Virus record (IMG/VR): IMGVR_UViG_3300034073_003340
Location: 1 to 64,000 of that record
Origin: a virus
Reading direction: 5' to 3' (one strand)
DNA: 64,000 bases
Every line of letters starts with the position of its first letter. Position 1 is the first letter of the stretch. Both the position numbers and the translations under genes were made by a program. Below, one piece after another: positions 1,642 through 18,910 of the stretch. The notes below the pieces were generated by a model, which was not told where the DNA came from, did no database searches, and worked only from the letters and a program-made list of their open reading frames with translations.

Positions 1642-4221
1642 TTAGAAGCTCATAGGCATAGGAGCGGATCCTATATCATCCGTGTCACCTATGCTTTTCA
1701 AGTTTTCTTCAATCTGCTCTTCCCAGTCGGCGCAAATCTGTAGTAATCTGACTATCTGTAGGGTTCCCATAACCAAGTCGTCATTTACCCCTATTTTGCC
1801 CTTGTAGGAGCCGCCACCGCGTACAAAGTTCTTGAGCTCCGTGAGTAGTGCTCTACTCTTCAAGGTCATTCTACGGGTCTCTACGAGCGTTTTAAAGCGA
1901 GCACAGGCGGTCATCTTTGTTCTACTATTGGTATTCAGACCTTTTCGACCTTTGCCGCCGCCGCTTTTGCGAGGTTCATGTGTGAAAATGCCTGGAAAGT
2001 TCTCCTCCCCAATATTATCAATATGAACCAGGGCTGCTTCACCCAAGCTGTTGTTTTCAACCGACCAGTAGATCTCTGGATCGCCATCTTGGTCTGGGTG
2101 ATTAGCCAAACTGTGATGGATATAAAGAAGAGCCTTACGAAGAATCTCAACCTGATCTTGCGTTACCGTCTTATTATGTCTCCACTCTGCTACTTGCGTC
2201 AAAGTTGTGAGATCAAATACCTGTATTGCCGAGAAGTCAGATCCGGTTCCCATCGAGGGATCAAGTGTTGCGCCATAAATGTGATTGGGTTGAGGCTCTT
2301 CAAACCAGCGCATTTGGCCAATCTTAAAGATCGGTTCCTGTGGGCTCAAGTTGGCTAATGTGAGTGGATTGATAAGAGTTTCATCCTCAGAAACGAACTT
2401 ACACTCGTATTCTCGCTGGAATTTCTCTTCGCCAAGCTGTTGACGCTGGGTCTGGGCCCAAGCTTCATCTCGGGTTGGATTCTTGTCCCAAGTAATTTCC
2501 AGGGGCTTATAACCATTACGACCCAATCCACCAGGAATTACTTCACCATTGTCGTCAATGTTATTCTTAGCACCAAACCAAATCTCAGCGAACTGATCTT
2601 CGTCGTTGTTTGGAGTAGAAGTGATGATACAGCTACCACCCGTAGACAGGGTTGGCGCAATAGCCGACCAGAACTCAACTGCTTTATTGGGCTGAACGAA
2701 CGCAAACTCGTCCAAGTACAGTAGGGAGATGGAAAGACCACGACCTGCGTCCTTGGACGTAGCTCGTGAAATGATTCTGGAGCCGTTGTCAAACGCAATT
2801 GTGCCCTTGTTGTATTCCACAACACCGCTGCGGAGCCAGTTGTACTGCTCGAGATTCTCATAAGCAAAGCGGATACGATCCATGATCTCTAGAGCAGATA
2901 CGAACTTGTTTGCCGCAATGAGAATCGTGGTATCGGGTTCAAACATTGCCTTCCAAAGAAGGAAACCAGCCGCACAAGTCGTATTGTGAGTTGGCACAAG
3001 AGTTTCACCACAAAGGAACAAATGATCCTCATTGTCTACTTGTAGACAACGAACCGGAACGCTAGTGGTGGACTCAATTGATTTGATATAGATTCTAGAA
3101 TTCTTTGGATGATTCTTACAACGCTTTTGACGTTCTAGTTTTCTTTCCAATTTGAAAATATCAAATAGCGACGTAGTAAATCGAACGGACCAGGCCGTCT
3201 TATAACCAGTTTCCCTGCTAGAAACTGTTGATTTGATACCTAGACTACTCAATAGTAGGCGAACTTTTCGCACCATGTTTTCATCACTCTGATAGAAATT
3301 ACAGGTGCCATTCTTTTCCACTGAACCATCGGTATCCATAAGACCGCGGAGAAGTTCAAGACGATTTTCTACTGAGGTGAAGATATACGAATCAGGTATA
3401 TGCTTATTAGAGATCACTCCCAAGTCACGCAACGCAACTTTGAAACCACCAGCAATATTGAAACTACCAGTCGTGTCACTTCTCTTATCTAGCCTAAACT
3501 GAGACGTTCTGAATCCAGCTTCTTCTACAGCCATCTGGTAAGTGGGAAAGTCATCAATATGACAGGTCACACCAGAAGAATTTCTTCCACCATCCCCAAG
3601 CCAGACTCCAAGCAGGTATGGATCTACAGGAAGCTTGCTATCGCTAAACTCTATAGCGGCACAATGTTTAATATGAACGCTCTGTGTGCTTTCGGGTCCA
3701 TATTTTTTGAGACAGTCAATCAGTTCAAGGGTCGTGATTGTCCTCGTCCTATCCTTTTTTAATGGCAATTCAACAGTCCAGAGATGATCCGCATCAGCAA
3801 TAACAGTCTCGCCATGGCTGAATTCTACCCTATAACAGGGGCGATCGTTCATAGTTTCAGTTATGAACTGAATTCTTGTTGGCTTACCATCAGCACCATA
3901 GATAGTGTCACCCACCCTCAGATCACCCATTGTGGTGAATCCACTAGGTGTCAGTATCGGAGTATCCAATGCCAAGGCTTTTCCCATTTGTCGAGCCGTT
4001 AGGGCAATAGTATAGCGATTCTTATGAAAAGCATCGATCATCTCTTCCTGGTAAGGCCAAAGCTTAAAAGGAACTCGACCTTGGGTGGGATGCTGGATCT
4101 TCACATAATTCTTACAGAAGTAGATAGGGTCAGACATACACTTTCTGAGCTCTTCAATCTGATTTAGATTAAAGCGGTCTTTGCTGTACCCTTTTTTAAT
4201 AATTTCAATATCTTTAGCCAT
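1642..4221 (-). CDS. 17: Terminase large subunit (gp17-like) interrupted by an intein
   Basis: The ATPase-nuclease that packages phage DNA into the prohead through the portal. The 859-aa precursor contains a 332-aa intein (A82-N413); splicing would leave a 527-aa terminase. The Walker A motif is split: TARQMGK ends at residue 81 and resumes at T414 as TTCAAG. Walker B is LYLDEF (501-506). The C-terminal nuclease domain shows D654 in ATLDPSMGTGSDF, E722 in YWSVENN and the DD pair at 814-815 (NDDLVMG), all in the T4 gp17 arrangement. No good ribosome site precedes the ATG; instead a stable hairpin ends about 8 nt upstream. The family assignment is firm. Confidence 0.95.
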   Translation of the reverse strand: MAKDIEIIKKGYSKDRFNLNQIEELRKCMSDPIYFCKNYVKIQHPTQGRVPFKLWPYQEEMIDAFHKNRYTIALTARQMGKALALDTPILTPSGFTTMGDLRVGDTIYGADGKPTRIQFITETMNDRPCYRVEFSHGETVIADADHLWTVELPLKKDRTRTITTLELIDCLKKYGPESTQSVHIKHCAAIEFSDSKLPVDPYLLGVWLGDGGRNSSGVTCHIDDFPTYQMAVEEAGFRTSQFRLDKRSDTTGSFNIAGGFKVALRDLGVISNKHIPDSYIFTSVENRLELLRGLMDTDGSVEKNGTCNFYQSDENMVRKVRLLLSSLGIKSTVSSRETGYKTAWSVRFTTSLFDIFKLERKLERQKRCKNHPKNSRIYIKSIESTTSVPVRCLQVDNEDHLFLCGETLVPTHNTTCAAGFLLWKAMFEPDTTILIAANKFVSALEIMDRIRFAYENLEQYNWLRSGVVEYNKGTIAFDNGSRIISRATSKDAGRGLSISLLYLDEFAFVQPNKAVEFWSAIAPTLSTGGSCIITSTPNNDEDQFAEIWFGAKNNIDDNGEVIPGGLGRNGYKPLEITWDKNPTRDEAWAQTQRQQLGEEKFQREYECKFVSEDETLINPLTLANLSPQEPIFKIGQMRWFEEPQPNHIYGATLDPSMGTGSDFSAIQVFDLTTLTQVAEWRHNKTVTQDQVEILRKALLYIHHSLANHPDQDGDPEIYWSVENNSLGEAALVHIDNIGEENFPGIFTHEPRKSGGGKGRKGLNTNSRTKMTACARFKTLVETRRMTLKSRALLTELKNFVRGGGSYKGKIGVNDDLVMGTLQIVRLLQICADWEEQIEENLKSIGDTDDIGSAPMPMSF
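2983..3978 (-). mobile_element. Class 3 intein with LAGLIDADG homing endonuclease in gp17
   Basis: An in-frame protein intron covering precursor residues 82-413. It starts with Ala (ALALDTPILTPSG) instead of Cys or Ser and ends in THN followed by Thr+1. It carries the Trp-Cys-Thr set that defines class 3 inteins: W148 two residues after the block B His146, C392 in block F (VRCLQVDNEDHLFL) and T411 before the terminal His-Asn. In class 3 inteins the block F Cys makes the first attack. A DOD/LAGLIDADG endonuclease is embedded, with motifs LLGVWLGDG (203-211) and LLRGLMDTDG (290-299). Insertion in the Walker A loop means unspliced protein should be inactive. Confidence 0.9.
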
Positions 4222-4229
4222 AGATGAAC

Positions 4230-4259
4230 AAGGGCTCTGATCAACAGACCAGAGCCCTT
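4230..4259 (-). terminator. Hairpin between the 636-aa ORF and terminase
   Basis: A 10-bp stem, AAGGGCTCTG pairing with CAGAGCCCTT, with a 10-nt loop. On the minus strand it follows the upstream gene (stop at 4267) and ends 8 nt before the terminase ATG at 4221. The T-tract is weak, so it may be a terminator or attenuator, or may affect terminase translation. Confidence 0.55.
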
Positions 4260-4266
4260 TCCTATT

Positions 4267-6177
4267 TTAATCGAAGGTCTTTACAGACAGCTTCTTGGTT
4301 GGAGAAACACCGTGTTTAGACATCATATCAACGACCATTTCATAGTTGTTGATAAGATCAAGGGAGGTGAAACTAGCAATCACCTTTCCAGGACGATATT
4401 TGCTTCCGGTAGAGGTCTGAGTAACACAAGTAACTGGTGTCCCATTAGGAGTTCTGCTTAGCCCAGTTACATAGTTGAGACCCTTCTTTCCATTACGATC
4501 AATTTCTAGAACAGTTACACCAGCCCTGCTGCTACCGCTACTCATATCATCAAAATATTGTGCGGTTCCATTCTTGATATCTTCCAAACTAGCGTATCCG
4601 CAATCGGTGTTTAGATAGAAAGGCTCTCCGTATTTGGTATGTGGTGACTTGGAATAGTAGAGTTGAACCTCATCCAGATCTGAATTCTTGAATTCGTCCA
4701 ATAAACTCTCAGCCGTTGGTTCCAAACGGTCTAAGCCTTTTTCACGCTTCCAAGCAATGCGATCATGAGCATTGCGCCATTTTGCCACTCTTTTACCTGC
4801 ACCCTTACGCATAATACCCATGCGTTCAGCTTCTTCAGCATCATGGACTAAATCGTCCAGATCGCCCGCTTTCTTCTCATGATGAGCCTTGCTGTCTCGA
4901 GCCTTGGCAGCATAGCGTCCCTTGAGATCACCACTTAGTTCGTTCAGCTCAGTTTCATCAGAAGCCGTTTGGCTTTCACCAAAATCACCACCCATATCAA
5001 AGCCCAACTCTGCACTGGTGTCTTCTCCGTGATCCTCTTCGCGATTATGTCCAAAATAGCCTACGCCATAGATACCATAACCAAACTTTGGGTTATTGGA
5101 CTTCTTGGAAGCTTCCTCGACATAATCACGAAAGCTTTTTGGAGAAACCGACTCTTCTTGATGGAACTGATTGGTGCTGTGATCAACGGCTTCTTGTCTA
5201 ATTCTATCCATTGTCTTTTGATCGATACGATCAATAATGTCTTCACCAGTTGATTTAACCACTACTGCGGTAAGGTCTAGCGTGCCGCCCATGCTAGCAA
5301 CTGGCATGTGATCCAATCCAGTATCAAAGTCTCCTGAGTCCCAATCATAATGAACGGTAACTTCAACTTCGCCCTGTGGGTGAGTCTCATCTTCAATCCA
5401 GGTGTCAAACTCTTCACTGCCACCGGGCTTATAAGGAGATTCAGTAACCTGCTCGGATACATCAACGTCTTCAAAATCCATATCGTTTAGATAGACAATG
5501 GACTTACCGCCCTTGTGGGTTACTAGCCAAACGCCATCTACCATTGAATCAGGCTTTGCGGTGGCACCATCCATATCATGAGTGCTCATGAAATCTAGAA
5601 ACGCGATCGCACCTTCTTCGGTGTCAGGAAACTTAGTCTTCAGCTTGTCTTCAAACGGTCCTTCGGATAGTGGGTTATCGCCTGAACGAGCTGGAACTCT
5701 TTTTGTATCCGGCTGAACTACTGTTCGGCTAGCAATGCCTGCGTATTCCTGAGGATCAGTTTCATTCGTGCGGTAATCATAATTGGCTTCTTCACCAATC
5801 TTTGGATCAACTAGGTCACTACCCATATCCACTTCTTTGGAAGCTGCCTCTGGACCGTTTGGATCAATTGGATCCACCATATGATCATCGTCGCCGTCCG
5901 AATAGCTCATTGCTGCGAACTGTGGTTCCAAGAGATTCATGATAGAACGTAGATCTGGTGAATTGATGGTGGAGGTCATTGTCGCTCCACCCTCTTGAAC
6001 ATCAACGGTCAAAGTAGCTGGACCATTGAAGGCAGCACTATTACCAGCAATGCCTGCGTTCTTGAGAACCTGAGCCAGTTCAGGAATATCAGCCGCTGTA
6101 ATTGTGGTATTTGATGTCATATCACCATTGCTATTGGAGATATTGAGACTCACTGCCTCATCAATCTTCTTAGTCAT
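4267..6177 (-). CDS. Acidic 636-aa protein, unknown function
   Basis: A ribosome site (GGAAGGG) precedes the ATG at 6177, which abuts the stop of the gene before it. The protein is strongly acidic over most of its length, with a Gly/Asp-rich middle and a Lys/Arg/His-rich helical stretch around residues 415-475. The N-terminal 90 residues are Thr/Ser/Asn-rich and look beta-structured. No known catalytic motif is visible. It lies between gp16 and gp17 candidates in a run of late genes, so a virion or head-assembly role is inferred from position only. Confidence 0.7.
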   Translation of the reverse strand: MTKKIDEAVSLNISNSNGDMTSNTTITAADIPELAQVLKNAGIAGNSAAFNGPATLTVDVQEGGATMTSTINSPDLRSIMNLLEPQFAAMSYSDGDDDHMVDPIDPNGPEAASKEVDMGSDLVDPKIGEEANYDYRTNETDPQEYAGIASRTVVQPDTKRVPARSGDNPLSEGPFEDKLKTKFPDTEEGAIAFLDFMSTHDMDGATAKPDSMVDGVWLVTHKGGKSIVYLNDMDFEDVDVSEQVTESPYKPGGSEEFDTWIEDETHPQGEVEVTVHYDWDSGDFDTGLDHMPVASMGGTLDLTAVVVKSTGEDIIDRIDQKTMDRIRQEAVDHSTNQFHQEESVSPKSFRDYVEEASKKSNNPKFGYGIYGVGYFGHNREEDHGEDTSAELGFDMGGDFGESQTASDETELNELSGDLKGRYAAKARDSKAHHEKKAGDLDDLVHDAEEAERMGIMRKGAGKRVAKWRNAHDRIAWKREKGLDRLEPTAESLLDEFKNSDLDEVQLYYSKSPHTKYGEPFYLNTDCGYASLEDIKNGTAQYFDDMSSGSSRAGVTVLEIDRNGKKGLNYVTGLSRTPNGTPVTCVTQTSTGSKYRPGKVIASFTSLDLINNYEMVVDMMSKHGVSPTKKLSVKTFD

Positions 6178-6179
6178 GA

Positions 6180-6884
6180 TTAGCCCTTCCTTTTGACGTT
6201 TTCGTCATAGTTACCATGGTTACCAACTAGACTGGGCTTTGACGTCTTGGTGCCGGCCTTTTTGGTGTTAACGTGGACAGGCTTGACCGTATCCATGTCT
6301 TTGTTGAAATCATCAGCGACTTCAGTGCTCTTTTTGTTAAGCCAGGAAAACTTATTGGTTTTCCTAATCTCTTCAATTGCCGGAACGGTTTCTGCTTCAG
6401 CGTCTGCTTTGATCTGCGCTAGATAGTTCAGGAATTTCTTATTGTATTCGTCACCAAAAGCGACTTCTTTGGGCTGGTCTTCCTTTTCATAAAAAGGATC
6501 TTCTAGAACAGCCTGATGATCATCCTTATGAATTTCTTCAAGGGCTTCTGCCTCAATAGCCACTGGTTCGTTCTCGCCTCTGACGATTAGGGCGCTATCC
6601 GCGATCTGAAAGGCTTGGCGCAGCTCAGTGGCCAAAACATAGCTAGAGGCAGAAACACCAGTCTTGATATCCAGGACCCAAATCTCTGCCATTGGATAAT
6701 TCTTAAAATCCAGGGGAGACTTTTGAGCCATCAGCTTCTTTGGTGTAGAAACACTTTGGATGTCATACTTGAAAAGAGCCTTTTTGAGCGTTTCGACGAA
6801 GTGGGCGTCCATGGGAACAACCGACTTGACGCGATACCCAAAGCTCTTGGCAGATTCTGCCAGATAGTGGTAAAATGATTTCAT
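6180..6884 (-). CDS. Unknown late protein, 234 aa
   Basis: I chose the ATG at 6884 (MKSFYHYLAES) over an upstream GTG at 6896 because GAGGG sits just ahead of it. The N-terminal half looks like a small alpha/beta domain (MAEIWVLDIKTG near residues 65-80), followed by an acidic linker and a basic Lys/Asn-rich tail. I recognise no family. It overlaps no neighbour but is only 2 nt from the next gene, so it is probably co-transcribed. A late-type promoter box lies at 6911-6920. Confidence 0.7.
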   Translation of the reverse strand: MKSFYHYLAESAKSFGYRVKSVVPMDAHFVETLKKALFKYDIQSVSTPKKLMAQKSPLDFKNYPMAEIWVLDIKTGVSASSYVLATELRQAFQIADSALIVRGENEPVAIEAEALEEIHKDDHQAVLEDPFYEKEDQPKEVAFGDEYNKKFLNYLAQIKADAEAETVPAIEEIRKTNKFSWLNKKSTEVADDFNKDMDTVKPVHVNTKKAGTKTSKPSLVGNHGNYDENVKRKG

Positions 6885-6910
6885 GGCGTCCCTCACACTT
6901 GGAGTTTAGC

Positions 6911-6920
6911 CTATTTAGCG
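6911..6920 (-). promoter_or_regulatory. Late-type promoter box (CGCTAAATAG)
   Basis: Minus-strand CGCTAAATAG about 27 nt upstream of ATG 6884, in the same arrangement as in front of the other virion genes. Confidence 0.55.
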
Positions 6921-6927
6921 GAAATCT

Positions 6928-7434
6928 TTAGATCTCGCCTTTGCGGATCTTAGCCATAAGATCATTACGGTTTGCGGTAATACTAGAACCGTTATCTATG
7001 AACTCCCCATCTTCAACACCATCGTTCATGTCACGCTTGTGTTTATCCTGCTCCATTATCAGACGGATCTCTTCCATTCGTCTTTCTGACTTCGAACGGG
7101 AAGCCTTAAGAGCGATCTCCAGAGCTTTGAGGGCAGGAGTAAAAGCATTGGGTCCTGCATTCTTGGGTTCAATATTGAACCCAAGGTCCATGAGATCCTT
7201 GTGAGCGCGCATTGCGACATCGTAGATTTCATCAGTCTCTGCGGTGTGTTCCTTTACCCCGGTTGGATCTGTGGAGGCAGACAACGCCAGAGGGCTAGCA
7301 TTAGCTAACGCATTAGCCATCTGAGATACCTCTGCGTTCACAGCAGGAGTTTCTTCAACTTGACCCTCAGCGAGCTCTTTTAGGGCATCTTCCAAACGCG
7401 GTAGATTTAGTTCGTCTTCTAAAGCTTTTGTCAT
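6928..7434 (-). CDS. 16: Probable terminase small subunit (gp16-like)
   Basis: 168 aa, close to the 164 aa of T4 gp16, the DNA-recognition partner of the large terminase. The sequence has an acidic N-terminus and then a long helical centre (roughly residues 65-135: DVAMRAHKDLMDLG, then ALKALEIALKASRSKSERRMEE), which matches the coiled-coil core of T4-like small terminases. It lies a few genes upstream of gp17 on the same strand, the usual relation. Its ATG overlaps the stop of the SLOG-like gene by 4 nt. The assignment rests on size, helical pattern and position, since similarity in this family is low. Confidence 0.55.
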   Translation of the reverse strand: MTKALEDELNLPRLEDALKELAEGQVEETPAVNAEVSQMANALANASPLALSASTDPTGVKEHTAETDEIYDVAMRAHKDLMDLGFNIEPKNAGPNAFTPALKALEIALKASRSKSERRMEEIRLIMEQDKHKRDMNDGVEDGEFIDNGSSITANRNDLMAKIRKGEI

Positions 7435-7862
7435 TTGTCTTCATCCCTGGGCAACTCAAATTCGACAATAGGAGCGTTTGGCTTCAATTTTCTAAACTGA
7501 GATGCTTCACGGAGGCTTTGCTTGCCACCACCAACGCGAACTAAGGCATCTATATAAGTCAGAAAGGTTTCACTTTCATCACCCCAATCTTTCCCAACAA
7601 TGATTTTATCATCTACGGGAAAGCAAGGATAATCTGATGCTTTTGAACACGCGATACCAACGGTGGTCATTTCACCACCGAGTGGATCAACCGCGATTCT
7701 ATAAGCCAAACCTGGTATTCCTTGATCTGTAAGACCAGAAACCATATGGGTTACCATTTTCCCACTTGTAGATTCAACATGATAGATACCTAGGACTATG
7801 AGACGCTTTGCTTCAGTCTCATCAAAAGTACCTTCGCTATAACCAACAATACCAAGTTTCAT
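7431..7862 (-). CDS. SLOG/Rossmann-type nucleotide-binding protein
   Basis: 143 aa. It starts with MKLGIVGYSEG, a Rossmann-like first strand and loop, and contains GKDWGDESETFLTYIDALVRVGGGKQS, which ends in a Gly-rich loop as in SLOG/LOG/YpsA-type proteins. The context GVTVGIACSKASDYPC-like middle (around residues 65-85) supports a sugar-nucleotide or NAD-derived ligand domain. The substrate is unknown. It is translationally coupled to the gp16 candidate. A TAAATA box (GTAAATAC, 7877-7884) lies about 15 nt upstream and a GAGG ribosome site is visible. Confidence 0.6.
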   Translation of the reverse strand: MKLGIVGYSEGTFDETEAKRLIVLGIYHVESTSGKMVTHMVSGLTDQGIPGLAYRIAVDPLGGEMTTVGIACSKASDYPCFPVDDKIIVGKDWGDESETFLTYIDALVRVGGGKQSLREASQFRKLKPNAPIVEFELPRDEDK

Positions 7863-8319: not shown

Positions 8320-9383
8320 TAGAATAGCTTTCCAGGTCTACCAAACAAGGCACCTTTTAAAAGACCTTGGACACCCTGTCTGGCCGCTCCAGTATTACCA
8401 GAGACGATGTTTTTTAAACTAGATGCGGCAGTCTTACCAATAGCAAGACCTCTATTGGCATCATAAGATCCTGCTATTTCGCTGATAATACGACCAGGAC
8501 TACCGAAGCCTTGGCCGGTTATACCACTCAAGAGATTTCTCTGTAAGGTCGCACCAATGGTATCATCTAAACTACGGGTTATAGCATTTGGAGTTGTCGC
8601 CAGACCAGGAGTAATATCTAGATTTGGTAGATCGTTTGGAACGTCCCAATATTGACCAAAATCCAAACCAGCATCCTCAGCAATTTCCTGTGTTATGGGT
8701 TCGGGGTCAGCGTAAACTATTCCCTCAAAATCAATAGACATCTGAATTTCGTTGGTAACGGCACCAACGCTATAATCAAAATCGTCTGGGTTGAAGCTGG
8801 AGATCTTTGGATTGATCAGATCAAATCGTTCCATTACACCATTGTAGAATTGATACACCGAGATATGACTAAAGAAATAGGCGTAGTTCTGCTCTACCAT
8901 TGGGGGTAGAAAACCCCAGCGACCCAGTTCAAAGGACTCGCCAGTTACGATATCATAGACCGTTGATCCACTTGAACCTGCACCGTATATCTTACTATCA
9001 CCATAATAATATTGGTAATATTCAACAAACATATTTCGCAGATCCTGCGAAATGGTATCATGAAATCTAACCTGGAGCGGCTCAAAGTCATGACCGGTTT
9101 GAACAATACGTTTACGATTATACTGATTCAGCGTCTCTTGGCGAAAGGTAACTTTGGGTCGATCAATATTCTTGACAACTAGTCCAATTCCTCTTTCCCA
9201 TCCACTACCACCAGTAGACTCCGGGCGATAGAACTTCATCCAAAAAAGGAATTTGTTCTTGGGAACATTGGCGAATCTAGTTCCGCCCAAACCAAAATTG
9301 TTTGAAGCGTGATGGCTGTCCCCCAACATGAGGGACAGCCCATTAGGATCAGAAGTCCTACCGCCTCTTGAAGTTTCAGTCAC
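8319..9383 (-). CDS. 54: Baseplate/tail-tube junction protein, gp54-like
   Basis: 354 aa, close to T4 gp54 (320 aa), which links baseplate to tail tube. Residues about 45-115 (KFLFWMKFYRP...VKNIDRPKVTFRQETLNQYNRK...EPLQVRFHDTISQDLRNMF) have the tube-protein-like fold pattern shared by gp19, gp48 and gp54. The C-terminal third is Gly/Ala/Ser-rich. The start is a GTG at 9383 with AAGG upstream. A 9-bp hairpin lies within the first 25 codons. A gp48 candidate is at the right end of the window, so gp54 is the better name here. The structural role is well supported; the exact gene name is tentative. Confidence 0.6.
   Translation of the reverse strand: MTETSRGGRTSDPNGLSLMLGDSHHASNNFGLGGTRFANVPKNKFLFWMKFYRPESTGGSGWERGIGLVVKNIDRPKVTFRQETLNQYNRKRIVQTGHDFEPLQVRFHDTISQDLRNMFVEYYQYYYGDSKIYGAGSSGSTVYDIVTGESFELGRWGFLPPMVEQNYAYFFSHISVYQFYNGVMERFDLINPKISSFNPDDFDYSVGAVTNEIQMSIDFEGIVYADPEPITQEIAEDAGLDFGQYWDVPNDLPNLDITPGLATTPNAITRSLDDTIGATLQRNLLSGITGQGFGSPGRIISEIAGSYDANRGLAIGKTAASSLKNIVSGNTGAARQGVQGLLKGALFGRPGKLF
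9313..9340 (-). promoter_or_regulatory. Stable hairpin inside the gp54-like start region
   Basis: GGCTGTCCC pairs with GGGACAGCC, a 9-bp perfect stem with a 10-nt loop, about 40-70 nt inside the reading frame that starts at GTG 9383. Hairpins this strong are unusual inside coding sequence. Confidence 0.4.
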
Positions 9384-9393
9384 TGACTAAACC

Positions 9394-10232
9394 TTATAGA
9401 CGGTTGCCAGGAATCTGCTCAGGAAGCGCGGTCATTAGACCGTTTGCCTGCGTTGCGTTATCAAAACGAACAGTCAACGTAATGGTCTGGAAACCGGATT
9501 CAGCATAGTCCAGATCCATGTAGTCAACGTTCTGTAGGAAGCAACCTTCAAGCGTCCATGTCTCAACGACAGTGTCATTGCCACCGTCCATGGTCTCAAT
9601 AATGGTTACAAACTTATAGTTGATACCAGAAGCAAAAGCCGTCTGCTCAAAGTGGTTGAGCTGCTTCTGTAACTGGTGCCCAACAAGCTTAGCAACGTTG
9701 TTGGTCAAGTCATCCTTGAGAACAATCTGCAAGGTCTCCCACGTATGCTTACCAGCATAGTAGGCGGTGCTGTTGTAACTATGAACAGGAACTTCTTCGT
9801 GGGCAATTTTTGGTTTGCCAACGCTCTGAACCTGCTGGGTGAAGTCGAGACCACCTGCGATTGGACCAAAGTTAACCACGCGGACGCGGAAGCGATACTT
9901 ATACTTGAGTTGGAGAAGACCACCGCGGCCCTGTCCGCCTCCAAGTGGAACCATTTGTATTCAATCAGTGTCGTTAATACTGATCCGCCTTACGGCTGCT
10001 CATTGTTACCAATGAGATTAGACTATATCATGACCCACTTGGGGCCCCACCCGTTTCAGCCCACTTGGGCCTACGACCTTTCGGTCTAGTCGTTGAACGT
10101 TCCGGTTCATAACTCCGGCTTCGCTGCTGATTGTCCCTGAGGGATTTTCCAGCAATTAGAGTGGTTTTTCGACCAGGATCACTCCTGGAAGCAGCTATTC
10201 CTTTAACCGAACTTAGATAGAGTTTCTGCCAT
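9394..10232 (-). CDS. 19: Tail tube protein gp19-like, split by a group I intron
   Basis: This protein forms the inner tube of the contractile tail. Exon 2 encodes a tube-like sequence (LKYKYRFRVRVVNFGP to the C-terminus). The upstream start is separate: a strong AGGAGGTGA site precedes ATG 10232, which encodes MAETLSKF before a stop in the intron. My predicted join is exon 1 10211-10232 (22 nt) and exon 2 9394-9950 (557 nt), giving 579 nt, 192 aa, reading MAETLSKF-PLGGGQGRGG. The join keeps frame, and P1 and P10 pairings support it. Reading from ATG 9954 alone would drop the true N-terminus and has no ribosome site. Exact splice points are inferred. Confidence 0.8.
9951..10210 (-). ncRNA. 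Group I intron in the tail tube gene (no internal ORF)
   Basis: A 260-nt self-splicing intron. All four core elements are present in order on the minus strand: P AATTGCTGG (10149-10157), Q ACAATCAGCAGCGAAGC (10118-10134), R GTTCAACGACTAGA (10085-10098) and S GATATAGTCT (10020-10029). R GACTA pairs with S TAGTC to form P7. Exon AAGT can pair with GCTT as P1 with a U-G pair at the 5' site, and GGAA inside the intron can pair with exon-2 TTCC as P10. The predicted last intron base is G. No endonuclease gene lies inside; a GIY-YIG gene is 98 bp beyond the exon 1 start codon on the other strand. Confidence 0.9.
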
Positions 10233-10329: not shown

Positions 10330-11142
10330 ATGTATTACGTTTATACCTTGTGTGATCCAAGAAGAGATGACCAACCATTTTATGTTGGCAAGGGATCACG
10401 AGACCGATGTAAGTCCCATCTATATGAAACGTATCAGAATACGAGCAATCGCCGCAAGTGGTGTAAGATAGCTGCTATTAAGAAGTCCGGGCTTGAAGTT
10501 ACTATCAAAAAGATTCAAGAGGATTTATCAGAGTCTGATGCTTATGATCTGGAAGAAGAATTAATCAAGAAGTACGGTAGAATAGGCTATGAATCCAATG
10601 GCATCTTAACCAACATATGTGAATCTTCTCGTCCTCCCTCTGCTAAAGGAAGAATGATATCAGATGAAACTCGTAGAAAGCATAGTGAACGCCAAAAAGG
10701 TCCACTAAATCATAGATATGGTATCAAGATGTCAGATGAGGAAAAGGAATATAGGCGTCGATTTAATTTAGAAAATGGTATCAGACCGCCTGATAGGACA
10801 GGGGTTTCCCACACTGAAGAGACCAAAATCAAGATGAGTCTAGCCAGCAAAGGTAAGAAGAAAAGCCCTGAGCATTGTAAGGCGATTGGTGAAGCTCGTC
10901 GTGGAAAATCTCTAGGACCATGTTCCAATGAGAAAGCCAAGAAAATAGCAGAATCACAGTATAGAAACTATCAGCTTACTAGCCCTGAAGGTAAAAATTA
11001 CACAGTGAACACAAGTAAACTAAGAGAGATGATAAAGATATTCAATTGGTCATATGGGGGAATCATGGCAGCTAAAATTGCTGGGAGAAAATATCGAGGT
11101 TGGACTATTTTAGATCTGGGACGATCTAAAATACCAGATTAA
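10330..11142 (+). CDS. GIY-YIG homing endonuclease (Seg-like)
   Basis: 270 aa. The N-terminal GIY-YIG nuclease domain shows YVYTLCDPR and PFYVGKGSRDRCKSHL, with the catalytic Glu probably in the DLEEELIKKYGR helix region. The C-terminal half carries NUMOD3-type DNA-binding repeats (KGRMISDETRRKHSE, GVSHTEETKIKMSLASKG, KKKSPEHCKAIGEARRGK) and a final helix-turn-helix-like segment. GGAG precedes the ATG. It is transcribed against its neighbours and is AT-rich. It sits beside the ORF-less intron in gp19, so it may drive homing of that intron or of itself. The stop abuts the convergent gene to the right. Confidence 0.9.
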   Translation: MYYVYTLCDPRRDDQPFYVGKGSRDRCKSHLYETYQNTSNRRKWCKIAAIKKSGLEVTIKKIQEDLSESDAYDLEEELIKKYGRIGYESNGILTNICESSRPPSAKGRMISDETRRKHSERQKGPLNHRYGIKMSDEEKEYRRRFNLENGIRPPDRTGVSHTEETKIKMSLASKGKKKSPEHCKAIGEARRGKSLGPCSNEKAKKIAESQYRNYQLTSPEGKNYTVNTSKLREMIKIFNWSYGGIMAAKIAGRKYRGWTILDLGRSKIPD

Positions 11143-15100: not shown

Positions 15101-15251
15101 GCTCGTGAAACCCACGAGCAAGGTTGGCCTCTGACATCAAGGCCGGTAGTTCGATCTAGGGAGTGGGGTGACGGCCACTCGGCTCACAGCTTACGCTGTG
15201 ATTGAGAAACGGACGGTTTTCTATAGAAACACAAAGCGGACGGGCTTTGTG
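15101..15251 (-). ncRNA. String of five hairpins upstream of rsr: Y RNA candidate
   Basis: Between the 100-aa gene and rsr the minus strand holds five stems in 150 nt: CACAAAGC/GCTTTGTG (15230-15251), CACAGC-GTAA-GCTGTG with a GNRA loop (15185-15200), GAGTGG/CCACTC (15161-15180), a 5-bp GGCCT/AGGCC stem (15126-15144) and GCTCGTG/CACGAGC (15101-15119). No reading frame covers it. Bacterial Y RNAs (YrlA type) are usually encoded next to rsr, so this is the natural candidate. It could instead be a structured rsr leader. The tRNA-like module of YrlA is not clearly visible to me. Confidence 0.5.
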
Positions 15252-15259
15252 ATAATGCC

Positions 15260-15562
15260 TTATAACTGGGCTTGGTTTGCCTCGTCAAGAGTCTTTTTTA
15301 GAACTTCTAGCACTTCTGCCTTGCTTCCAAAAATACCACTCATTGAGACTGGATTTGTAATAGCAACATGGATTACCGTCGGACTAAAAAATCTGATGAT
15401 TCCATAGCCTTCAAATCGACCGTTTCCAGGCTTGCGATTGTTCCATCTGGTTCGATACTTACCGCCCACACTGTAGACGTCATATCTATAATTGTTTTCG
15501 ATGCCCAGCAAATCTGAGACATCCTGGTAGAACTTTTCTACCTCACTGATTTCCTTTTCCAT
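15260..15562 (-). CDS. Small unknown protein, 100 aa
   Basis: The product begins MEKEISEVEKFYQDVSDLLG and has a likely beta-rich centre with GRFEGYGIIRFFSPTVIHVAI. No ribosome site is obvious and a TTGACA-N17-TTAAAT promoter ends about 6 nt before the ATG. It is separated from rsr by the hairpin region. No family recognised. Confidence 0.6.
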   Translation of the reverse strand: MEKEISEVEKFYQDVSDLLGIENNYRYDVYSVGGKYRTRWNNRKPGNGRFEGYGIIRFFSPTVIHVAITNPVSMSGIFGSKAEVLEVLKKTLDEANQAQL

Positions 15563-15567
15563 ACTCT

Positions 15568-15596
15568 ATTTAAGCATAGATTTGGAATCTTGTCAA
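15568..15596 (-). promoter_or_regulatory. Sigma70-like promoter TTGACA-N17-TTAAAT
   Basis: On the minus strand the -35 TTGACA is at 15591-15596, the spacer is 17 nt and the -10 TTAAAT is at 15568-15573, just upstream of ATG 15562. Confidence 0.55.
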
Positions 15597-15599
15597 CTC

Positions 15600-16440
15600 A
15601 ATGGTTGTCGGGTAGCACGAACTCTACCCGACGAGGCTCCACCACCATATAGGTATTGGATAAAAGTAAAGGTCTCGTTCGTGAGACCACCCCTGCGTCA
15701 TCAACAACATGGCACTTTGGACCGCAAGGTCCGAAGAGCAAGTAACGAGGTGGACCGGGCTAGTGTATTGAGATCGAAATCTTAATACCTATATCTCCCT
15801 AAGCAGACCGAAGCCTGTTTCCATGTTGTTGAGTCAGCGTGTTAGGTTACTTTCTAGTAAGATAACCCACCATCATCGGCTCTCGATCTATTTATTTGGG
15901 GGTCTCCGGAGACCGAAGTCTCCGGAGGGCAAGTTGACTAGGTCTTTCCAGCGCCAACTTGCGGGGCTTGATAAATCAGATACTTGGTCTGATCACACCT
16001 ACTGAGTCCTATGCCTTTCAGACCCAACGCGTCTAGGGGAAGTTACTCAAGGCCCCCATGTTTCCGATCAAGGTAGTTAAGGAGGAACCAAATCTAGGCC
16101 TTATGACCGAAGCCCGCCTATCCTCTTTATTCGTTTTAATAGCGTTGGTGACACTATTTAAACTACTAAACCTCACCGTCGCACGCTAGGATGAGGGTGA
16201 GGGGTGATCCTTCCCTCAACATAACTACCATGTGGGACCGAAATCCCAGATCACTAGGGACACTCGCAAGCGCCCCGTCGCACTTTACCAGGTCGATTCC
16301 TGGACTTTTGTTCTCCTCCGGTGCCGTCCGGCAGATACCTTTATGTGTCAGCACACACCCCAGTCGCCAAGAACAAAATATATGGGTTCAAGAGCCTAGG
16401 CTCCTCCGTGCCGTTTAACCGTTGTATATTAGATCCTTTT
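15600..16440 (-). ncRNA. Large ornate non-coding RNA candidate (about 840 nt)
   Basis: No credible gene occupies this stretch, yet it is dense in inverted repeats. Two long perfect helices cross: TCAACAACATGG (15701-15712) with 15821-15832 (12 bp) and ATATAGGTATT (15647-15657) with 15784-15794 (11 bp), giving a pseudoknot. On the minus strand three clear UUCG-loop hairpins occur (15804-15817, 15906-15925, 16234-16247) and a weaker one (16105-16114). A 9-bp hairpin closes the 3' side (GTCGGGTAG with CTACCCGAC, near 15607-15632). CTCCTCCG(G)TGCCGT is directly repeated near 16312 and 16409. Size and style resemble large phage RNAs such as GOLLD or ROOL, but identity is not shown. Orientation is inferred from the UUCG loops and flanking genes. 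Confidence 0.6.
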
Positions 16441-16464
16441 GAATCGCAATATTCTATTCATGGA

Positions 16465-16492
16465 AATGGAGAGAGTTTTACCTCTCTCCATT
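16465..16492 (-). terminator. Terminator-like hairpin after tail sheath gene
   Basis: AATGGAGAGAG pairs with CTCTCTCCATT, an 11-bp perfect stem 4 nt beyond the gp18 stop. No strong T-tract follows, so transcription may read through into the RNA region. Confidence 0.5.
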
Positions 16493-16495
16493 CTC

Positions 16496-18910
16496 TTAGT
16501 TAAACAGAGCGCCTAAATCATCACCGGTGGCAACAATGCGAACCGGAATATAGATGAATTCAATTGCCTGAACTGGCTGGATAGCAATATCTACCCATAG
16601 TTCCTGGCGATCAATTCGCTCTGGTGTGTTGTTGGTTTCATCACAAACCACAATGAAGTCGTAAAGACCACGTAGACCTACTAGATCTGCTAGAAAACGC
16701 TCAAAGGTCGTTCTCACAGAATCTCGAGTCTGGAAGTCGTTTGGTTCAAAGAGGAACGGCTTGCTGATGTTATCCAAGTTGTAACGTAGGTAATTGACCA
16801 AACGAGCAACGTTGATGCGATCAAGAGCTGTTTCTAGGCTGTGACGAGTCTTCTGCCCATATACCACCAAACCACGATTTGGAATAAACGCGATTGGGTT
16901 GATCTTATTGGAATACAGAATATCACGCTGACCAGGGTTCAAGATAGCAGCCTTGAATTCACCCTCATCATCAAGATATCCAACGCTAGAGGCATTGTTA
17001 ACAAGACCACGAGTGAAACCAGCAGGAGCCATCCAAGGGTAGCTGATGCTATCATTGTAAGCCAGAGTTCTAAGAGCAATCGTCGACGGTGGGACCATGA
17101 TCTCGTTACCATCAACATTGGTGCTCAGACCCCATGGATAATACATACCAACATATGGGTTGAAAGTGCTGACACCATTTTCAGTGTTACCATTTCCAGC
17201 ATTGTTGGCAAACTCTGTGATTGCCGCGCCAGTTGGCTTCAAGCGGATTGGAGTGTCACCTACAATAAATGCCACTTCCTTCATGTCCGTGTTCAAAGTA
17301 ACCATCTCATCGATTAGTTCAATGTAACCAGGAGCAGCCAGGAGGTTAAAGTAAACCGTTTCTGCACGGATGTCTTCATTTGCGGAAATCGTTGCCGCAA
17401 GCGAGCGGACAATCATCTGACGCTGCGCACGACGTCCAAAGAACGGAACACCATTTGTCTGGAAGCCAGAAACGTTTGACCACTTGCCTTCAGAAGCATT
17501 GTATTGCTTGACGTCGTTGGTAGACGCAGCAAGATCAAACAACTTCATACCTTCAGCATAGTTGAGTGACTCGGTAGTTTCAGCTTCACCAAACGCAATA
17601 CCGTCAATTGGGTCAATGTTGTTTTCAACATTAATAACCTTCCACAAGCCACCGGTTCGACGATACATCTTTGGATAATTTTCCAAATCCGAAGTATCAA
17701 CCCAAAGATCGTTTTCGACCAGTGGAGCACCAGTGGACTGAACCGTTGGTGCCGATCCCAGCAGGATCACACCGTTGGCATCAGTTGCTGGATAAACTGT
17801 GCGGTATGGACGCCATTCTCCGCCTTGGTTAACCTTGACGTTTACTACTAGATTCTGGTTATTGAACCAGAGAGTTCCATCATCGGCTGTGTTGGTTGGC
17901 TCAGTCGCACTAGCTTCTTCCCCAAGAGCTTCCCAAACATCAGTATTTTCGTTATAACGAAGGAACTCAAAAACCGCACGAGTATCTTCATAACTCAAGA
18001 ATACTGAACCAGCAACTCTAGTTAGAGTGTTGACCTTTGACAAGCTGTAGATAGGAACTAGGGTTTCTGCCCAAATGCCAGTTCCGGCATTATAGGTTTT
18101 TAGAAGCCAGGTCGCTGCCGCACTAATGCTGGTAATAACATCAGGGGTATTGAGAACTAGAACGTCGCCAATGTTTCCAGTAGCAGGACGGAAATTGTTG
18201 TATTTTAGTTCCAGAGAAGCCGAAGATCCTTCAGCAACCTTAGCTGTCTTCCATTCTGGTGTTCCTACAACAAACCATTCGTCGGCAATACGCTGATAAA
18301 GAACCTTCTTTGAATACAACACTACCATGGCAAAATCACCATTGGCAGAATCTACCAGAAGAGGAACTTTCTGTCCAGGAATGATTTCAGGAGCCGCGCT
18401 ATCAAGAGAAGACTCATCTTCTACGATCCAAAGATCGCGCTCAGTCCATTCACTACCAGTATATTCGTAAATACCCCAGGTATTGTTTTGCGTATCTAGC
18501 CAGTTCGTGCCATTGGTAGCTTCGGCACGAGGCTCAGAAGCCTGTGGCATCAGCTGCCCATAGTCGATCGCAGCACGAATGACAAACGCACGGTTAGCAA
18601 TACCAAGATACTGGTAAGCAGCATGAAGACCATACTCGTTTAGTTCGTAACCATGAACGGCAGAGCCATTTCTGGTGTAAAAAATTGGGTTGCCAAACGT
18701 CTGGAGGAGTTCGCGCTGGCTCGTGATAGGGTAGAGCTTGTTCGCGTTCTCGGGCAAGGTGCCTTCGGCCACGCCGCTACCCGAAGGCAGAGACTTGAAT
18801 TCGTGCGTGCCGATAATAATCAGCGGAACAGTGCCTTCACCAGCCGTTGCGTAGTTGGATTCGTCGGTTACGGTAACAGATGTACCGGGCGACACTAGAG
18901 GATATACCAT
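16496..18910 (-). CDS. 18: Tail sheath protein gp18-like
   Basis: 804 aa; T4 gp18 has 659. The N-terminus (MVYPLVSPGTSVTVTDESNY, then GTVPLIIIGTHEF) and the C-terminal domain (IDRQELWVDIAIQPVQAIEFIYIPVRIVATG) are typical of contractile sheath proteins. The core ring-forming parts are the first 120 and last 250 residues. The middle (about 125-440) contains repeated modules of the form W-x-x-x-T...NDLWVDTSD and TLWFNNQNLVVNVK, likely surface-exposed insert domains that explain the extra length. A late-type box lies at 18949-18958 and the mRNA leader would be about 40 nt. The large RNA region begins just downstream. Confidence 0.93.
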   Translation of the reverse strand: MVYPLVSPGTSVTVTDESNYATAGEGTVPLIIIGTHEFKSLPSGSGVAEGTLPENANKLYPITSQRELLQTFGNPIFYTRNGSAVHGYELNEYGLHAAYQYLGIANRAFVIRAAIDYGQLMPQASEPRAEATNGTNWLDTQNNTWGIYEYTGSEWTERDLWIVEDESSLDSAAPEIIPGQKVPLLVDSANGDFAMVVLYSKKVLYQRIADEWFVVGTPEWKTAKVAEGSSASLELKYNNFRPATGNIGDVLVLNTPDVITSISAAATWLLKTYNAGTGIWAETLVPIYSLSKVNTLTRVAGSVFLSYEDTRAVFEFLRYNENTDVWEALGEEASATEPTNTADDGTLWFNNQNLVVNVKVNQGGEWRPYRTVYPATDANGVILLGSAPTVQSTGAPLVENDLWVDTSDLENYPKMYRRTGGLWKVINVENNIDPIDGIAFGEAETTESLNYAEGMKLFDLAASTNDVKQYNASEGKWSNVSGFQTNGVPFFGRRAQRQMIVRSLAATISANEDIRAETVYFNLLAAPGYIELIDEMVTLNTDMKEVAFIVGDTPIRLKPTGAAITEFANNAGNGNTENGVSTFNPYVGMYYPWGLSTNVDGNEIMVPPSTIALRTLAYNDSISYPWMAPAGFTRGLVNNASSVGYLDDEGEFKAAILNPGQRDILYSNKINPIAFIPNRGLVVYGQKTRHSLETALDRINVARLVNYLRYNLDNISKPFLFEPNDFQTRDSVRTTFERFLADLVGLRGLYDFIVVCDETNNTPERIDRQELWVDIAIQPVQAIEFIYIPVRIVATGDDLGALFN

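Follow-up and report, generated by a model that had tools for sequence, protein, structure and literature searches.

What is encoded by the ~930 nt that separate the tail sheath gene from the next conserved gene of a large virus genome? The window, that is the whole stretch analyzed here, is the first 64 kb (64,000 nt) of a 435,856-bp virus record (IMG/VR IMGVR_UViG_3300034073_003340), whose sheath protein has its nearest relatives among cultured phages in Sinorhizobium phage Phosso and Agrobacterium phage Atu_ph07. On the minus strand, tail sheath is followed by the ~930-nt region, the p100 gene, the Ro60 gene and, later, tail tube:

16496..18910, minus strand: tail sheath gene (Pfam PF17482), upstream neighbor of the RNA
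16465..16492, minus strand: 11-bp hairpin directly after the sheath stop, conserved with 8 compensatory pairs
15260..15562, minus strand: p100, a conserved 100-aa protein downstream of the RNA, present in all clade members and in L002, L003, L017, L018 and L119
13338..15140, minus strand: Ro60 gene with TROVE and vWA domains (Pfam PF05731, PF25045)
9394..9954, minus strand: tail tube gene (phrog_4542), second border of the putative ancestral locus

The 11-bp hairpin likely marks the end of the sheath transcript, outside the RNA. The p100 protein (~100 aa) gave no Pfam or PHROG match; its gene is kept 3′ of the RNA in the window clade and also in L119 and L018, where Ro60 was not seen. Just upstream of the tail tube gene there is a group I intron (RF00028, 85 bits; 9999-10215, minus strand), and a GIY-YIG/NUMOD3 endonuclease ORF lies on the opposite strand to it at 10330-11142.

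A preliminary description of positions 15600-16440 had proposed that a large structured RNA follows the sheath gene, with a two-helix pseudoknot, UUCG hairpins, a direct repeat and no gene. All of the elements that it named are present in the sequence. The 12-bp helix (15701-15712 with 15821-15832) and the 11-bp helix (15647-15657 with 15784-15794) are both perfect and stand in crossing order, two distinct long-range perfect helices of at least 11 bp being found in 0.4% of 500 dinucleotide shuffles. UUCG occurs seven times on the minus strand vs 3.1 expected, and the “direct repeat” AGACCGAAGCCT, present three times, is the core of three UUCG hairpins in plus-strand reading. The folding energy gave z values of -4.0 and -6.0 for the minus and plus strands, respectively; since both strands fold well, energy alone shows neither strand nor function, and it is from the promoter, gene direction and terminators that the RNA is seen to be on the minus strand. 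The homologues share no reading frame, their longest frames differing from one to another, so that no ORF is conserved in the region, and indels in domain I of the clade homologues are almost never multiples of 3.

Relatives of the sheath gene led to eight contigs with a homologous region in the same place, together with L004, which is nearly identical to the window. The eight regions share 62-84% identity and are 480-990 nt long. Helices were derived with RNAalifold, domain I corresponding to window 16411-16065, and in this domain most cells were paired, with compensatory changes. Retention of the bases with loss of the pairings had been named beforehand as the outcome that would speak against a structured RNA; the alignment gave the opposite, bases changing and pairings staying, which bears out the large structured RNA proposed for this place. 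The elements are as follows:

16280..16411, minus strand: conserved core module (P0, P1, pseudoknot, P2-P5), CM R1 111.7 bits, E=1.2e-19, with covariation
16280..16411, minus strand: closing stem P0, 16411-16407 with 16284-16280, 38/40 cells paired and 3 compensatory pairs in the clade
16390..16405, minus strand: hairpin P1 (AGG..CCU cap), 16405-16400 with 16395-16390, covariation in clade and family
16359..16386, minus strand: pseudoknot of CCCA 16386-16383 with UGGG 16362-16359, crossing P2, third pair C-G or U-A in 40 sequences
16306..16378, minus strand: helix P2, 16378-16369 with 16315-16306, both sides changing in 9/9 modelled pairs
16343..16358, minus strand: hairpin P3, covariation across the family
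16317..16332, minus strand: hairpin P4, covariation across the family
16288..16303, minus strand: hairpin P5, loop ARUUNA in most members, 97.9% of cells paired
16257..16276, minus strand: hairpin P6, clade-specific, 56/56 cells paired, 3 compensatory pairs
16072..16229, minus strand: second half of domain I, closing helix 16229-16220/16081-16072, 74/80 cells paired, 8 compensatory pairs
16217-16199, 16196-16171, 16163-16133 and 16125-16082, minus strand: inner hairpins of the second half of domain I, whose helices covary too
15899..16056, minus strand: optional domain II, including a 10-bp UUCG hairpin (15904-15927), from comparison across clade members
15701..15832, minus strand: optional domain III, closed by the 12-bp helix (15832-15821 with 15712-15701), 58/59 cells paired, 4 compensatory pairs
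15647..15794, minus strand: 11-bp helix (15794-15784 with 15657-15647), present but unconserved on comparison of homologues
15607..15632, minus strand: 3′-end hairpin GTCGGGTAG..CTACCCGAC, with 9/9, 9/9, 7/9 and 8/9 pairs in four sequences

Within the clade, 76/80 cells of P2 were paired, with 10 compensatory pairs. The 3′ half of the RNA is lineage-specific: domain II is found in the window, L005, L013 and L009/L008, is diverged in L006 and is absent from L010, L011 and L014, and the hairpin at 15607..15632 possibly lies outside the transcript, past its 3′ end. The two-helix pseudoknot of the preliminary description stood in one part only, since the 12-bp helix was kept in all five sequences possessing domain III and of the 11-bp helix only the window has an intact copy (L005 retains 4/8 pairs and L013 8/11, and the others lack the arm). 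The deeply conserved pseudoknot, 16386-16383 with 16362-16359 crossing P2, is a different one.

More diverged relatives (Phosso, L017 and L018) showed a common motif, UGAACCYAUA..GACURGG..AARGR, and a scan with this pattern returned 56 viral contigs. L101 and L111 were discarded as chance pattern matches lacking the P2 helix and giving no score with either a structural or a sequence-only model. The core shared by the family covers ~134 nt with ~20 invariant nucleotides and comprises P1, a CCYA/URGG pseudoknot crossing P2, P3-P5 and usually the closing stem P0. The pattern with which distant members were found itself prescribes much of the core sequence, including all pseudoknot positions apart from the middle (third) pair, so that conservation of those other positions tests nothing. 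This middle pair, left free on both sides by the search pattern, was C-G in 20 and U-A in 20 of 40 distinct sequences, with no mismatches. P2 lies outside the pattern and scored 19.5 for own-strand partners vs 9.9 when partners were crossed; P0 was weaker family-wide (mean 14.6 vs 12.8 crossed). Pairing reached 88.1% of cells when 22 sequences were aligned with MAFFT alone, vs 65.9% in shuffled and 33-51% in slid controls, and a model-fitted alignment of 41 distinct sequences, which leans towards the structure, gave 94.7% of 1,064 cells vs 57.7% and 34-46%, respectively. The structural model outscored the sequence-only model in 17/17 held-out members (36.8-89.7 vs 21.9-59.0 bits). Covariation shows the predicted RNA fold, an H-type pseudoknot with P2 plus P1, P3, P4 and P5, to be conserved, and the two general marks of a structured RNA, compensatory base changes in helices and absence of a conserved reading frame, were both found. 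A possible likeness of P4 to 23S helix 72 was dropped because P4 varies freely.

A search of the region (15140-16520) with all Rfam families gave only a meaningless microRNA match at E≤5, and a description of this RNA was not found in the literature searched, the coverage of which was incomplete. Phage genomes have reportedly been surveyed for candidate structured RNAs. From its sequence and predicted fold, the RNA is best placed in a family of structured non-coding phage RNAs that had not been classified before.

The model search found the RNA in 34 records of up to 608 kb, each with exactly one copy. The motif was missing from 84,980 bacterial and archaeal genomes when searched as an exact pattern, which would miss variants. 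A concatenated blastn search of the cores against cultured phages gave no match, a result expected from cores that are short and diverged and therefore not evidence of absence. In most lineages the RNA is flanked by the tail sheath and tail tube (phrog_4542) genes, and this holds even for sheath proteins with no more than ~45-50% identity. In many lineages the tube gene begins ~200-400 nt past the motif start. The tail tube is the downstream gene at short distance in many lineages, but not in the window or in tRNA-array members. As the order sheath-RNA-tube persists in diverged lineages, the simplest reading of p100 and Ro60 is that they entered this old locus later. In L104, L116, L136 and L151 the sheath and the RNA are separated by a small basic ORF (109-119 aa, start like MTSRNFKVRIHN) that differs from p100 and occupies the stretch from ~400 to 70 nt ahead of the motif; the L104 copy gave no PHROG match.

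Other members are found with tRNA genes. Those of L100, L103, L109, L115 and L118 lie in tRNA arrays, that of L118 including a tmRNA gene (9044-9491; permuted/beta type by Rfam), and the RNA follows a tRNA in L099 and a tyrosyl-tRNA synthetase gene in L147. In L149 (3062-3230, minus strand) the core motif sits within a tRNA-like frame with a GCGGCC/GGCCGC acceptor, a canonical T arm and an ACCA end. The viral contig L128 contains, within 4.5 kb (3400-7667), a bacterial class A RNase P RNA, tRNA-Val, the new RNA and a weak Ro60-like ORF.

Signals for transcription were recognized on both sides of the RNA in the window:

16444..16449, minus strand: predicted -35 box TTGCGA, TTG invariant in 9/9 aligned clade members
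16421..16426, minus strand: predicted -10 box TACAAC after a 17-nt spacer, TA invariant in the clade
15671..15688, minus strand: candidate terminator GGTCTCACGAACGAGACC + TTTACTTT, also in L005 (TTTACTTG)

The TTG-N20-TA element upstream of the RNA is invariant across the window clade and places the predicted transcription start at ~16414, just before P0. Among 27 sheath-tube members the mean best score for a sigma70-like promoter was 14.4 vs 12.4 in shuffled sequence, the upstream score exceeded the 95th percentile in 14/27, and the best promoter was usually 25-45 nt before UGAA, with a perfect TTGACA-17-TATxxT in L018 and L019. No such promoter was found in the tRNA-array members, as expected if the RNA is made together with the tRNAs. 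Intrinsic terminators were present upstream in 6/40 members (0.4 expected) and ≤350 nt downstream in 9/40 (0.6 expected); the candidate of the window was not found in clade members other than L005, several of which have no recognizable terminator. From its own predicted promoter and terminator we infer a discrete RNA. These sequence signals give good support to an independent transcription unit. An RNA polymerase of the host type is predicted to read it from the unit's own sigma70-like promoter, starting at stem P0 and stopping at an intrinsic terminator. The transcript would probably begin at ~16414 and end at ~15665 or else at ~15600, limits that differ a little from 16440-15600, and predicted lengths in the family range from ~190 nt (core only; L105, L123, L125 and L144) to ~750 nt (window and Phosso). 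In Phosso the predicted RNA, of ~750-800 nt, would start at ~288,270 of PV764938.

As to function, the RNA is probably a stand-alone, trans-acting structured phage RNA in the style of GOLLD and ROOL. It would act as a stable scaffold, alone or with a protein, and its most likely partner would be the translation/tRNA apparatus. This target is put forward tentatively, on the grounds that some members are placed among arrayed tRNA genes or follow either a tRNA or a gene for tyrosyl-tRNA synthetase, and that giant carriers mostly have GOLLD as well. GOLLD and ROOL are phage RNAs that occur near tRNA islands and form RNA cages, and GOLLD pulls down ribosomes (PMC12286853). The phage of the window has a GOLLD (RF02032) elsewhere in its genome (G000:299655-300084, minus strand, locus L153, 164 bits), preceded by a sigma70-like promoter, TTGACG-17-TATAAG. 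GOLLD was found in 7/9 carrier records >290 kb, four of them above the Rfam cut-off; as five of the seven are from one clade, independent cases of co-residence are few, namely that clade, G014 and G015, with a smaller record, G019. The converse, that GOLLD implies the new RNA, was rejected, 0/43 GOLLD-pattern records (41/43 confirmed as GOLLD) carrying it, and Atu_ph07 has neither RNA. In Phosso a tRNA is embedded within the GOLLD RNA (L154 1599-1670).

Like the new RNA, GOLLD is large, ornate, phage-encoded and single-copy, with a variable and a conserved domain, and is often near tRNAs (PMC12286853), and in the same phages it also has a sigma70-like promoter. The two differ in sequence and fold and occupy separate loci in one genome, and conservation falls on the 5′ core in the new RNA but on the 3′ region in GOLLD. 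ROOL (RF03087) shares the size class, the phage origin and the proximity to tRNA islands (PMC12286853) but gives no sequence-structure match. RNAs C and D of phage T4 are also stable, structured RNAs with no known function in a phage tRNA cluster; as family members they were rejected, since the best score in the T4 tRNA region was 8.6 bits, outside rnaC/rnaD, vs 37-121 for members.

The reading initially favored was that the RNA is the partner of the adjacent Ro60, as a large analogue of Y RNA serving as scaffold or gate, in line with a link to the neighboring rsr gene suggested in the preliminary description. RNA, p100 and Ro60 stand side by side in the window clade, in Phosso and in L017, a TROVE match is also present at a distant locus in the unrelated carrier G014, and 0/18 GOLLD-only phages have Ro60. 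However, most of the 34 carrier records gave no TROVE match, the RNA was not found in the Ro60 phages Atu_ph07 and five actinobacteriophages, L119 has RNA and p100 with no Ro60, and insertion of p100 and Ro60 into the older sheath-RNA-tube locus accounts for the adjacency. Bacterial Y RNAs, the partners of Ro60, resemble the window-clade RNA in that the latter is encoded beside a Ro60 gene; the new RNA is much larger, has another fold and occurs mostly without Ro60. The partnership, which lost to the carriers without Ro60 and to the sheath-tube synteny, is now unlikely and the rsr link is not supported in general; Ro60 is a dispensable neighbor of the RNA, and may use it in a clade-specific way.

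An equally improbable reading makes the RNA a derivative or mimic of tRNA that forms, together with GOLLD and, in some phages, Ro60, an RNA machinery by which giant phages take over host translation. The core has a cloverleaf-like plan (closing stem P0, hairpin P1, a pseudoknotted arm and hairpin P5 beside P0), and the tRNA-like acceptor stem, T arm and CCA of L149 are cited for mimicry.

A cis-acting leader or attenuator of the downstream tail-tube (or p100) gene would fit the short distance from motif to tube gene in many lineages, the terminator between RNA and tube gene in some of them, the riboswitch-like style of the compact pseudoknot and, at L122, L131 and L149, a ribosome-binding-like sequence closely following the RNA. 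Yet the tube gene is ~6 kb off in the window, no common gene follows the tRNA-array members, lineages differ in their downstream genes and additional domains of 300-500 nt are conserved, which makes such a role unlikely. A self-cleaving or processing element separating co-transcribed messages or tRNAs is very unlikely: the ~20 invariant core nucleotides, the pseudoknot and the position between highly expressed late genes or among tRNAs would suit it, but there is exactly one copy per record, with its own predicted promoter and elaborate peripheral domains, and known ribozyme families were not matched. That the RNA is a divergent form of GOLLD or ROOL, or what is left of a group I/II intron, is already refuted at the sensitivity of the sequence-structure models despite the fitting size and style, as no Rfam match to these families was obtained in the RNA region at E≤5, GOLLD is separate in the same genome, ROOL was found neither by Rfam search of the region nor by a whole-genome search run without a positive control, and the only group I intron match in the window is that at 9999-10215; the comparison with GOLLD and ROOL made in the preliminary description holds only as an analogy of size, style and occurrence close to tRNA islands.

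Large phage RNAs known so far are few (GOLLD, ROOL); both were recently shown to build RNA-only cages, and neither has a known function. To these the new family adds a compact core, a conserved place by the tail genes and frequent co-residence with GOLLD, and through this core the use of big RNAs by giant phages may be approached via a small, tractable RNA. As Sinorhizobium phage Phosso (469 kb), cultured on S. meliloti, has both GOLLD and the new RNA, the question is directly testable.
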